Virus record (IMG/VR): IMGVR_UViG_3300005294_000052
Coordinates: 1 to 43,024 of that record
Reading direction: 5' to 3' (one strand)
DNA: 43,024 nucleotides
Source: a virus
Shown: positions 741 through 10,839 of the stretch, one piece after another
Position numbering within the stretch: position 1 is the stretch's first letter
How the letters are laid out: the number at the start of each line of letters is the position of its first letter
Notes under the pieces: model-generated
Told to the model about the DNA's origin: nothing
Seen by the model: the letters and a program-made list of their open reading frames with translations, nothing else
Databases searched by the model: none
Program-made: the position numbers and the translations under genes

Positions 741-765
741 CTCGTGGCGCAGTAGCCACAACGAG
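741..765 (+). other. Hairpin next to the tRNA-like element
   Basis: The sequence folds as CTCG/CGAG (741-744 with 762-765) and TGGC/GCCA (745-748 with 755-758), with a six-base loop and a three-base bulge. It ends one base before the first stem of the four-arm element at 767-840 and could stack on it. There is no T-run, so it is not an intrinsic terminator. Its role is unknown; it could mark the 5' border of a processed RNA. Confidence 0.5.
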
Positions 766-766
766 A

Positions 767-840
767 GGGGCGCGGCGTGGTTCGACTCCACGGGGAGCCA
801 CCAACATGAGGCTCCCAAGCTCTCGGGGGAGAGCGGCCCC
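767..840 (+). tRNA. Candidate circularly permuted tRNA (3' half before 5' half)
   Basis: Read in order, the segment gives the 3' half of a tRNA and then the 5' half. First comes the 3' strand of an anticodon stem GGGGC (767-771), then a 4-nt variable loop (772-775). The T arm has a perfect 5-bp stem (776-780/788-792) and a canonical loop TTCGACT (781-787). The 3' acceptor strand GGGAGCC is at 793-799, discriminator A800 and CCA 801-803. After a 6-nt spacer come the 5' acceptor strand GGCTCCC (810-816), AA, a D arm GCTC/GAGC (819-822/831-834), G835 and the 5' anticodon-stem strand GCCCC (836-840). All 21 stem pairs are Watson-Crick. Oddities are A instead of T at position 8, a non-standard D loop, and no T at position 33 next to the stem, so the anticodon is unclear and the RNA may be degenerate or tRNA-like only. 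No known tRNA species is assigned. Confidence 0.55.
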
Positions 841-864
841 GCAATTCATAATCGCAGTGTGAGG
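841..864 (+). repeat. 24-bp direct repeat A, copy 2
   Basis: This is an exact copy of 125-148. It begins immediately after the last stem base of the tRNA-like element (C840). In copy 1 the same repeat is preceded by CACAACG plus four bases; here CACAACG (757-763) is separated from the repeat by the 77-base block holding the tRNA-like element. Confidence 0.9.
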
Positions 865-2531: not shown

Positions 2532-2578
2532 ACAAATACAAATGCCTACTCAATCCCGGTGATTCTGTTCCTGGGTAA
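2528..2578 (+). CDS. Possible 16-residue peptide
   Basis: A 16-codon frame starts in an ATGA overlap with the stop of the exonuclease gene and reads MNKYKCLLNPGDSVPG. Its stop lies inside the direct repeat at 2572-2587. The overlap suggests translational coupling. It may instead be the remaining N-terminus of a longer gene interrupted by the methyltransferase cassette. Evidence is weak because of the size. Confidence 0.3.
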   Translation: MNKYKCLLNPGDSVPG

Positions 2579-2587
2579 TAGGTGCGG
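2572..2587 (+). repeat. 16-bp direct repeat C, copy 1
   Basis: The 16 bases TGGGTAATAGGTGCGG recur exactly at 3207-3222. The two copies flank the DNA methyltransferase gene with 13 and 0 bases to spare, which marks the gene as a discrete insert or recombination cassette of about 635 bp. Confidence 0.9.
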
Positions 2588-2600
2588 GAGCGCGGGAATA

Positions 2601-3206
2601 ATGGAACCCTACTATCAGGATCAGTCAGTGACGCTTTATCACGGCGATTGTCGGGAAATACTCCCATCATTGCCGAAGGTTGATTTAGTGCTTACTGATC
2701 CGCCTTATCCTGACTATCACGCTGACGCGTATCACTATCGAGATGGATTGCTAGAGGTTTTGAATATCTTGGATTGTAGGCAGTTAGTTTTTTGGTCTGC
2801 CAAAGCACCGTTTCCTTTGAGTTATTCAGCAATTCACATTTGGGACAAATGCCCGGGCGGCGAGATCGCGGCGGCTGCGTATGAAAGAATTTTTGAACGT
2901 AATGGGCACGCGGCTTACAAAATGTTTCGCGCTTTCGTTATCAACAATCCTGTTCGCGCCATGCGTAGCCGGGATTTTTACAGCGGACACCCCTCCCAGA
3001 AACCAACTTACCTGATTCGGCAATTACTAGCCTATTTATGCAAAGGAACGCAAGGTTCTCTGGTTGTCGATCCGTTCGCCGGGGTCGGCACGACCTTGAA
3101 AACGGCAAAGGACATTGGGCTACGGGCCATCGGCATTGAGATTGAAGAAAGGTATTGTGAAATCGCGGCAAATAGAATGTCTCAGGAAGTACTTCAATTT
3201 GCATGA
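2601..3206 (+). CDS. DNA adenine-N6 or cytosine-N4 methyltransferase
   Basis: From the ATG at 2601 the product has 201 residues. It carries the catalytic motif IV TDPPYPDY near residue 32 and, towards the C-terminus, the S-adenosylmethionine motif DPFAGVGTT followed by a GIEIEERY segment. The order catalytic motif first and SAM motif last is that of beta-class amino-methyltransferases. The protein is short for the family, so the target-recognition part must be small. The frame is open from 2559, but the 2601 start is chosen because the paralogous fragment at 504 starts with the same motif. No restriction partner is next to it, so it is probably an orphan methyltransferase protecting or marking phage DNA. 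It is bounded by direct repeats C. Confidence 0.85.
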   Translation: MEPYYQDQSVTLYHGDCREILPSLPKVDLVLTDPPYPDYHADAYHYRDGLLEVLNILDCRQLVFWSAKAPFPLSYSAIHIWDKCPGGEIAAAAYERIFERNGHAAYKMFRAFVINNPVRAMRSRDFYSGHPSQKPTYLIRQLLAYLCKGTQGSLVVDPFAGVGTTLKTAKDIGLRAIGIEIEERYCEIAANRMSQEVLQFA

Positions 3207-8663: not shown

Positions 8664-10839
8664 CTCTAAAATCAATAAGCGGAACTTAGAAGCCGCCAAC
8701 AAGATATTCCAGCGCCAGTATCCTCACGAAGAACTCACCTACCATTCCCCTGCTTTAGTGGATGAAATGAATGCCCACTTCGAAACCATTCGAGGGAAAG
8801 ATGGGCAATTCACCCGACCGCTCACGCCTGAAGAAGATTTGTGGATCACGAATGAGCGCATAGTTTGCCGGATTAACCATCGGTACACACTTGTTCGCTA
8901 CATGCACATAAAAGATCGCTTCAGCAAGATCGTCAAATTCAACCCAAACATCGCGCAGAAGATCATCGTCGACGTGCTCGCAGAAATGGAAGAAGCGGGA
9001 GTCGAACTCGTCCTTCAGTTTCTCAAGGCACGGCGTCTTGGTGTCTCGACTCTCTTTCAATTACTCGTGGCGATTCGCATCATGTTCAGCCGTAACATTT
9101 CAGTAATCAGTTCGGCGGCAAATCCGGAGACATCAGACAAACTTTCAAAGATGCTTTGGCTGGCAATTGAGAAAACCCCGTTCTGGCTTCGACCACTGTG
9201 TCCCTATCTTGGCGACTCCGCATTTCTCAACGGCAAACCAAACGGTCGATACAAGACAGGCATCTTCTATGAGTTTTCAAACGGTGTTCGACTGGACATC
9301 GAGCATGGCGATCAGAAAGCCGATCCCGGTCGCGGTGAGAATCCTAGTGTTGCCCACTTTTCTGAGACGGCCAAGATAGAGAAGCCCGAAAATTTGATTG
9401 ATGCAGGATTCATGCGCGCAATGATTCCGTCGCCAATGAACCTCGCTTGCTTCGAAGGAACTGGTGAAGGCAACGTTGGATGGTGGCCAAAGAAGTGGGA
9501 GTTCAATAAGAAGAATTACGGGATACCAGGTTCGGGCGCGCGCATGAGGCCGACCTTTCTCGGCTGGTATGTGGGTCGCGACATCTACCCGTCTGAAACA
9601 GATTTAAGAACGCAGGGATGGTATGAAATCGGAGACACTTGGGAGCCGTCGCAGGGAACCGCAGAACACGCGAAGCAATGCGCCAAAGCTGTGCGCGCCG
9701 ACCCTTTGCTCACAAAGCATCTGGGCAAAGATTGGGTGATGCCTCGCGAACAGATGTTTTTCTACGAGACAAACATTAAAGAGTATCGAGTCGATAAAAA
9801 ACTACACATCTGGGCAAGAGAGATGGCTGCGAACGACAGAGCCGCATTTACGCCGTCATACAAGTCGGTATTCGATCCCGACCTGTTGATGAAATATCAG
9901 GATGCGATTGCGGAACCGAAAGGAGTCTTTGGACTCAGAGGCACATGCGGAAAAGATCAGCTTGTCCCGAAGCGTTATCAACCCACAGAGCACCTGGGCG
10001 GAACGTCACTTCGCGTGACGGCTGACTGGTCCCGAAAAATAGGCCCATTCAACTTCGAACTCTACCCGCTGAAATTCAAAGGTTGGAATGAGTTTGATGA
10101 AGCTGGAAAAATCATTATTTGGGAGTGGCCAAAGAAAGGTGAAATCTATTCACTGGCCACCGATAACGCCGATGGTCTTGGCGCCGACCGTACCGTAATT
10201 CAAATCCTGCGCAAAGGTGGCATGGGAAGGTGCGATGCTCAGGTTGTAGAGTTTTGCTCAGACGCGATCAGCGGCGTGGAGCTGTGGCCGTGGGTGCTGG
10301 CGCTCGGAACCTTCTACTCGACGATGCGGGATGGCAAGATGCGATTGCCAAAGTTGATCCCTGAAACGAACCGTGAGGGCGGCAGGCAGTTGCTCAAAGA
10401 GCTTGAGATGCGTGGCTGGAAGTCGAACGACATCTACTTCGAATACAAACATCGATCGACGTCGCGCAAAGCAGCCGGAACAGTTTCGTATGGCTGGCAG
10501 ATGACTCCAATGAATCGCGATGAATTGGTTCAACGTGGAATCCAGGCACTTGAAAATGAAGTGATCGAAGTGAACTCTCCGGCCTTGGTAGACGAGATGG
10601 CGTCATTTGTTCGGGATGAGAATGGGAAGAAAACAGCGGCAAAAAATCGCCATGATGACAGGTTGATTTGCCTATTTCTCGCGTTCCACGGACTGTATGC
10701 TGAGATAGCCAGGGCAACAGGAGCCGACCCAACAATTGAAAGAACTCGTGCCATTCCGGAGGAAGTGTTGTACCCTGTGGCGACAGAGGGTTCGATGAAC
10801 GACGTCAGCCGCTACCTTGATGAAATGATCGGAGGCTAA
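8656..10839 (+). CDS. terL: Large terminase subunit
   Basis: This 727-residue protein is the DNA-packaging motor. The N-terminal ATPase has a Walker A-type motif KARRLGVST at residues 124-132 and a Walker B-like segment VAHFSETAK at 232-240. The C-terminal RNase-H-fold nuclease shows an acidic strand ATDNADGLGAD near residue 505 and a late HDD motif (KNRHDDRLICLF) near 670. It docks on the portal, pumps DNA into the prohead and cuts concatemers. The ATG at 8656 overlaps the upstream frame by eight bases. The length is within the upper range for TerL proteins. The gene order TerL, small genes, portal is typical of podovirus-like phages. Confidence 0.9.
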   Translation: MYSSKINKRNLEAANKIFQRQYPHEELTYHSPALVDEMNAHFETIRGKDGQFTRPLTPEEDLWITNERIVCRINHRYTLVRYMHIKDRFSKIVKFNPNIAQKIIVDVLAEMEEAGVELVLQFLKARRLGVSTLFQLLVAIRIMFSRNISVISSAANPETSDKLSKMLWLAIEKTPFWLRPLCPYLGDSAFLNGKPNGRYKTGIFYEFSNGVRLDIEHGDQKADPGRGENPSVAHFSETAKIEKPENLIDAGFMRAMIPSPMNLACFEGTGEGNVGWWPKKWEFNKKNYGIPGSGARMRPTFLGWYVGRDIYPSETDLRTQGWYEIGDTWEPSQGTAEHAKQCAKAVRADPLLTKHLGKDWVMPREQMFFYETNIKEYRVDKKLHIWAREMAANDRAAFTPSYKSVFDPDLLMKYQDAIAEPKGVFGLRGTCGKDQLVPKRYQPTEHLGGTSLRVTADWSRKIGPFNFELYPLKFKGWNEFDEAGKIIIWEWPKKGEIYSLATDNADGLGADRTVIQILRKGGMGRCDAQVVEFCSDAISGVELWPWVLALGTFYSTMRDGKMRLPKLIPETNREGGRQLLKELEMRGWKSNDIYFEYKHRSTSRKAAGTVSYGWQMTPMNRDELVQRGIQALENEVIEVNSPALVDEMASFVRDENGKKTAAKNRHDDRLICLFLAFHGLYAEIARATGADPTIERTRAIPEEVLYPVATEGSMNDVSRYLDEMIGG

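Follow-up and report, generated by a model that had tools for sequence, protein, structure and literature searches.

A circularly permuted tRNA-like locus in a soil phage record and candidate counterparts in other phages

The 43,024-nt IMG/VR record IMGVR_UViG_3300005294_000052, a soil phage sequence analysed over its whole length and hereafter termed the window, carries at 767-840 a permuted tRNA-like locus in which both the sequence and a permuted-tRNA covariance model place the 3' half first and the 5' half second, with a short spacer between them. Each of the elements of the locus listed in Table 1 was found at the place assigned to it by a prior sequence-only reading of this DNA, and 21 of the 21 proposed stem pairs were confirmed as Watson-Crick. 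The atypical points recorded in that reading were equally correct, position 8 being A, A14 being absent, and U33 being supplied by none of the 8 enumerated junctions of the 7-nt anticodon loop. Direct reading of the sequence further indicated that the two usual tertiary pairs have been swapped rather than lost, with A8-U14 standing for U8-A14 and C15-G48 for G15-C48.

Table 1. Features of the permuted locus in the window, and positions of candidate elements in other phages
Feature	Source	Position	Strand	Remarks
Anticodon-stem 3' strand GGGGC, opens 3' half	window	767..771	+	5/5 Watson-Crick with 836-840
Variable loop GCGG, position 48 = G	window	772..775	+	G48 fits C15 as swapped Levitt pair (sequence)
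T arm CGTGG-TTCGACT-CCACG	window	776..792	+	5/5 Watson-Crick, canonical T loop
Acceptor 3' strand GGGAGCC	window	793..799	+	7/7 Watson-Crick with 810-816
Discriminator A + encoded CCA (ACCA)	window	800..803	+	sequence; presumed 3' end after A803
6-nt spacer ACATGA between halves	window	804..809	+	sequence
Acceptor 5' strand GGCTCCC, opens 5' half	window	810..816	+	pairs with 793-799; predicted RNase P cut before G810
AA (817-818), D arm GCTC-TCGGGGGA-GAGC (819-834), G26 (835)	window	817..835	+	4/4 Watson-Crick D stem
Anticodon-stem 5' strand GCCCC	window	836..840	+	pairs with 767-771; first five bases of direct repeat D2
29-nt repeat copy leading into ORF 873-1094	window	836..864	+	97% repeat; putative leader
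BF/GAP32-type jumbo-phage element, conserved, unannotated	L297; L299; L300; L301	697-819; 411-534; 408-525; 402-519
Three candidates	Sinorhizobium phage phiM12	96518-96586, 100433-100504, 101682-101749 (L294 1019-1087, 4933-5006, 6183-6250)		permuted model
Candidate	Bacillus phage G	405232-405319 (L295 733-820)		permuted model
Two candidates	Rhodococcus phage NiceHouse	80518-80589, 80669-80768		permuted model
Candidate	Bacillus phage vB_BcoS-136	55556-55625		permuted model
Candidate	Serratia phage BF	305228-305296		permuted model

The second copy of the 29-nt repeat, at 120-148, reads GCCGC where 836-864 reads GCCCC, and the GGGGC of 767-771 is matched only by the copy beside the element. Two short repeat pairs (120-148/836-864 and 470-492/1104-1126) lie before or between small ORFs in the window and may represent shared leaders. 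Adjoining the permuted element is ORF 453-731, which starts like the methyltransferase encoded at 2559-3206 (MKPYYQENGITIYHGAAE...DPPYN) and diverges from it after about 55 residues, and so appears to be a truncated methyltransferase. The window phage encodes a terminase distantly similar to that of an Acidobacteria phage, together with a portal and a head protein, and this combination makes a bacterial host likely.

The minimum-energy fold of the linear strand was itself the permuted cloverleaf at 767-840, and when the two halves were rejoined in silico ARAGORN called a tRNA; within the raw 43-kb window, by way of contrast, there was no ARAGORN tRNA, no conventional tRNA gene with its 5' half first, and no match to any Rfam family, RF00005 included. 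A covariance model was constructed from 50 phage tRNAs permuted computationally, the window locus being left out of the training set, and its sole match in the window was 767-840 at 55.9 bits with an E value of 9e-19, the exponent of which is rough owing to a short calibration. A structure scanner applied to 2 x 20 Mb of Markov-1 random sequence carrying the dinucleotide content of either the window or the L086 contig described below reached a maximum of 20 pairs, once per 20 Mb, and returned no 21-pair case. The swapped order of the halves, as originally proposed, was thereby borne out. Although the local sequence is GC-rich (73%) and might be thought to favour fortuitous hairpins, nothing as good arose in 40 Mb of random sequence, and with the E value cited above an assembly of hairpins by chance is extremely improbable; chance is no serious explanation for the arrangement at 767-840.

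A conventional tRNA interrupted in its anticodon loop by a large intron was rejected as a candidate, there being no 5' acceptor strand upstream of 767. The locus might alternatively be a relic, comprising the inner 3' and 5' halves of a tandemly duplicated tRNA whose outer halves have been lost. Tandem identical tRNAs do mimic the pattern: permuted-model matches in tRNA-rich genomes mostly represented neighbouring conventional tRNAs, removable by ARAGORN overlap, and when 30 bacterial model matches were fetched (nine or so at contig ends, beyond reach of the overlap test) nearly all of those with readable surroundings proved to be tandem conventional tRNA pairs. The truncated-looking methyltransferase ORF upstream could similarly be taken as a sign of local rearrangement. 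However, the leftover halves of conventional tRNAs about which the sequence-only reading had been concerned were untraceable on both sides of the window copy, all 21 pairs are intact, and the A8-U14 and C15-G48 pairs have been swapped together, a joint change which decay would not favour and which counts against a decayed tRNA. A relic is accordingly judged very unlikely.

The flanks of the window locus are unpaired, RNAduplex performing no better than shuffles (p 0.90), and they form no bulge-helix-bulge or other splicing structure, whereas several relatives have flanking stems and canonical anticodon loops. RtcB was not found in the window record or in the phages of L086 and L120, and an RNA_ligase-family domain of the PF09414 type, present in the phage of L086, was not found in the window record or the phage of L120; a T4 Rnl1 search of the window record, run without a positive control, gave no match. 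Homologues of the window copy were sought by terminase (two near-identical contigs, neither covering the locus), via a PAPS-reductase-like ORF (no permuted locus of comparable score among 80), by leader repeat, and by blastn against phages, and by these routes none was found, so that there is no covariation directly for the window copy.

A search for tRNAs sharing the acceptor 3' strand of the window gave 35 phage loci. The exact acceptor pattern yielded one additional permuted case only among viral contigs (L087) and no permuted case among 85k prokaryote genomes, where the one match was a conventional tRNA-Lys followed by a hairpin. A second permuted candidate occurs at 9257-9325 of L086, one of the 35 loci and from a 178 kb phage, and exhibits 21 pairs, T8-A9 and a canonical D loop; it is surrounded by a GGGATAGT/ACTATCCC flanking stem with an ACAGCA bulge (9226-9349), and a permuted tmRNA (ARAGORN tmRNA*) follows about 0.5 kb downstream. 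A third, in L120 (same record as L087), has an acceptor stem identical to that of the window and scored 55.6 bits. Relaxation to a purine/pyrimidine-coupled pattern gave 19 further loci, with permuted candidates in L164, L173 and L179, and other permuted candidates, each with an acceptor mismatch, were present in L163. ARAGORN reported no tRNA at the relevant spot for the candidates in L086, L120, L173, L164 and L179. A group I intron as the circularising agent was discounted, no Rfam group I match being located near L119, L120, L163, L164, L173 or L179.

On rejoining, one candidate in L173, an 89 kb rumen phage, gives the tRNA-Pro(UGG) loop UUUGGGC, and L173 is matched by a tRNA of the crAss-like phage cr116_1. 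In the phage of L173 (L215 560-8500; G040:36500-48000) a ...ACTTACAA motif also recurs about a dozen times, in several cases accompanied by a complementary arm; its copies surround complete tRNAs or permuted ones, or form a hairpin within tRNAs of conventional order, often in the D loop and also in anticodon regions (e.g. L215 1423-1530, 1601-1721, 1882-2003 and 2120-2244). No Rfam family could be assigned to this element, which resembles a small intron or processing element of tRNAs that has not been described. A tRNA cluster in G038 (L218, L219) displays a ACTTCGATT motif adjoining complementary arms.

The permuted model was additionally run on 13 named phages, matches overlapping conventional tRNAs being discarded, and the resultant candidates are included in Table 1; Cronobacter phage GAP32 also gave a permuted candidate, with no ARAGORN tRNA at that spot. 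No tRNA or other RNA gene was annotated over the cultured-phage candidates in the records checked. One phiM12 candidate rejoins to CUUAGGA, a Leu UAG loop, and the second of NiceHouse to CUGUUAA, an Asn GUU loop. The phiM12, BF and L086 copies sit inside inverted-repeat stems, which in phiM12 are long inverted repeats around all three candidates, and comparison of the second phiM12 candidate with phiN3 revealed a nearly identical flanking stem combined with strongly different D stem, T stem and variable loop. Listeria phage P100, a relative of which has proposed Y RNAs, yielded no permuted tRNA separable from its conventional tRNA array. The check suggested in the sequence-only reading, a permuted-tRNA covariance search of this and related phages, thus both matched 767-840 and uncovered further phage candidates. 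That reading was aware of no established phage examples; more than ten further permuted candidates have now been found in phages, some of them cultured, so that the window copy is one member of a set. No report of permuted tRNA in phages was found in the openly licensed papers searched.

When 16 permuted candidates were aligned to the model, 94.6% of cells were paired, a value reached by 0 of 500 shuffles, and 7/7 acceptor and 5/5 anticodon pairs changed on both sides; as the set was picked by a model that rewards pairing, its covariation is only supportive. An unbiased test was afforded by BF, SNUABM_47, GAP32, Kaldavass and XbC2, which were gathered by DNA similarity, and among these homologues compensation was seen at four pairs, of which two belong to the anticodon stem and one each to the T stem and the flanking stem, against 0 in slid controls. 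The uncompensated divergence of strands, regarded in the sequence-only reading as fatal to its proposal, did not therefore occur where testable, since the BF/GAP32 anticodon strands change with compensation. The elements of this family have a flanking stem, a AACAGCAA bulge and a closed acceptor hairpin with a loop of ATCG, CGAA or TTCG (no loop in two members), and are YrlA-like, albeit under the Rfam cut-off. They possess neither CCA nor a conserved anticodon, features which, with the closed hairpin, make a tRNA mimic a better reading of them than a tRNA.

YrlA is a bacterial Y RNA and a tRNA mimic. It is the nearest known RNA to these permuted elements (RF02553), sharing with the window copy the arm order of anticodon-like stem, T arm, acceptor hairpin and D arm; both this nearest bacterial RNA of the same order and permuted tmRNA had been overlooked in the sequence-only reading. 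The window locus might be a divergent YrlA-like Y RNA, in which a permuted tRNA-like domain acts with Ro60 (Rsr) to tether or modulate an RNase, for example PNPase. Several phage elements attained 31-45 bits with RF02553, against a family cut-off of 69 (GAP32 44.7, Kaldavass 41.9, BF 40.3, L120 36.9, phage G 36.2, phiM12 35.2, CBB 31.4), and the acceptors of BF, SNU47 and GAP32 are closed by four-base loops and are devoid of CCA. Sub-threshold TROVE matches were located at record positions 408158-408346 of Bacillus phage G, about 3 kb from its permuted element, and at 155405-155590 of G038, about 1 kb from its own; the element and match in phage G are candidates for a Y RNA and its Ro60. One paper proposes Y RNAs for Listeria phage CKA15 and cites Y RNAs of mycobacteriophages (PMC12282133); YrlA has also been described as uncut by an anticodon nuclease, which it possibly inhibits (PMC7790460). 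The sub-cut-off scores, weak TROVE neighbours and this literature suggest that part of the phage set may be Y RNAs, and hence of a known kind. For the window copy itself a Y RNA is nevertheless unlikely: there was no RF02553 match even at E 10 (401 bases searched) and no TROVE/Ro60 domain was found in the 43 kb record, which may be an incomplete genome, and the locus differs from YrlA in its encoded ACCA, its 7-bp acceptor with a spacer, and its lack of a long Y stem formed by the two ends.

Equally, the locus could encode a decoding circularly permuted tRNA, the anticodon-loop ends being joined and the acceptor then opened, as in algae and archaea. The encoded CCA and complete cloverleaf are consistent with such a role, as are the canonical rejoined loops in L173 (Pro), phiM12 (Leu) and NiceHouse (Asn). 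Against it, no junction of the window copy gives U33, its flanks are unpaired, and the phage's terminase is distantly like that of an Acidobacteria phage, so that an archaeal splicing endonuclease is not expected. Taken as a reading of the window locus this is decidedly unlikely; decoding, while improbable for the window copy, appears plausible for other phage copies.

The interpretation we prefer, to which we would give about an even chance, is that 767-840 is a real, selected permuted tRNA-like gene, the acceptor end of which is matured and the product of which is likelier to be a mimic than a decoder. The succession of an encoded A-CCA, a short spacer and G1 argues for this interpretation; A8, the odd D loop, the lack of U33 and of a flanking stem, the failure of the searches above to yield a homologue of this copy, and the failure to find RtcB or an RNA_ligase domain in the window record were counted against it. 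The gene would form part of an operon-like run of small phage genes, and its + strand transcript is predicted to adopt a cloverleaf whose anticodon loop is left unclosed. A cut by RNase P before G810 would follow, and 3' processing would leave the CCA terminating at A803 as a mature acceptor end. Cuts before G810 and after A803 would give a two-piece RNA, composed of a 3' half and a 5' half held together by 12 pairs, a state that would resemble two-piece permuted tmRNA, except where the anticodon ends were joined by a ligase of the host, RtcB for instance. Because no junction of the window copy gives U33, a tRNA mimic is likelier than a decoder; such a mimic may present tRNA enzymes or nucleases with a decoy or a substrate, or may act as a processing mark upstream of the ORF starting at 873.

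Since genes of swapped order recur, unannotated, in other phages including cultured ones, it seems that phages produce an RNA of the type familiar chiefly from algae and archaea as permuted tRNA. More broadly, and only tentatively, circularly permuted tRNA genes may constitute an undescribed class that is widespread in tailed phages, with some members competent in decoding and enclosed by flanking stems that contain conserved motifs; tRNA permutation would thus exist in the bacterial domain, and the window copy would be a stem-less, CCA-encoding member of the class. Standard tRNA finders did not report such loci, and if cultured phages do carry unannotated copies, the tRNA inventories of phages are incomplete. 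If correct, the proposal implies that permuted tRNA-like RNAs can be matured or tolerated by bacteria or phages, and that YrlA-type mimics may belong with real permuted tRNAs to a single evolutionary series. A direct test is possible because phiM12, G and BF grow on laboratory hosts.

Outside algae and archaea, permuted tRNA genes are not known to occur. The circularly permuted genes of these two groups (reviewed in PMC3978253; archaeal cases in PMC3218864) share with the window copy an upstream 3' half, a short intervening sequence and a cloverleaf that is complete once rejoined, whereas the window copy is set in a probable bacterial phage and has neither flank pairing, and hence no bulge-helix-bulge, nor U33. 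The window copy and permuted tmRNA have in common a T arm and CCA that come first, followed by a spacer and then the 5' acceptor strand, but the former has a true 4-bp D stem and a 5-bp anticodon stem, and the window returned no ARAGORN tmRNA call with a tag reading frame and no RF00023 match. Two-piece permuted tmRNA is known in both bacteria and phages. The phiM12, BF, phage G and NiceHouse candidates exhibit the same permuted cloverleaf and are unannotated in their records; the window copy differs from those of phiM12, BF and L086 in being without an inverted-repeat stem, and from the BF/GAP32 elements in possessing CCA.
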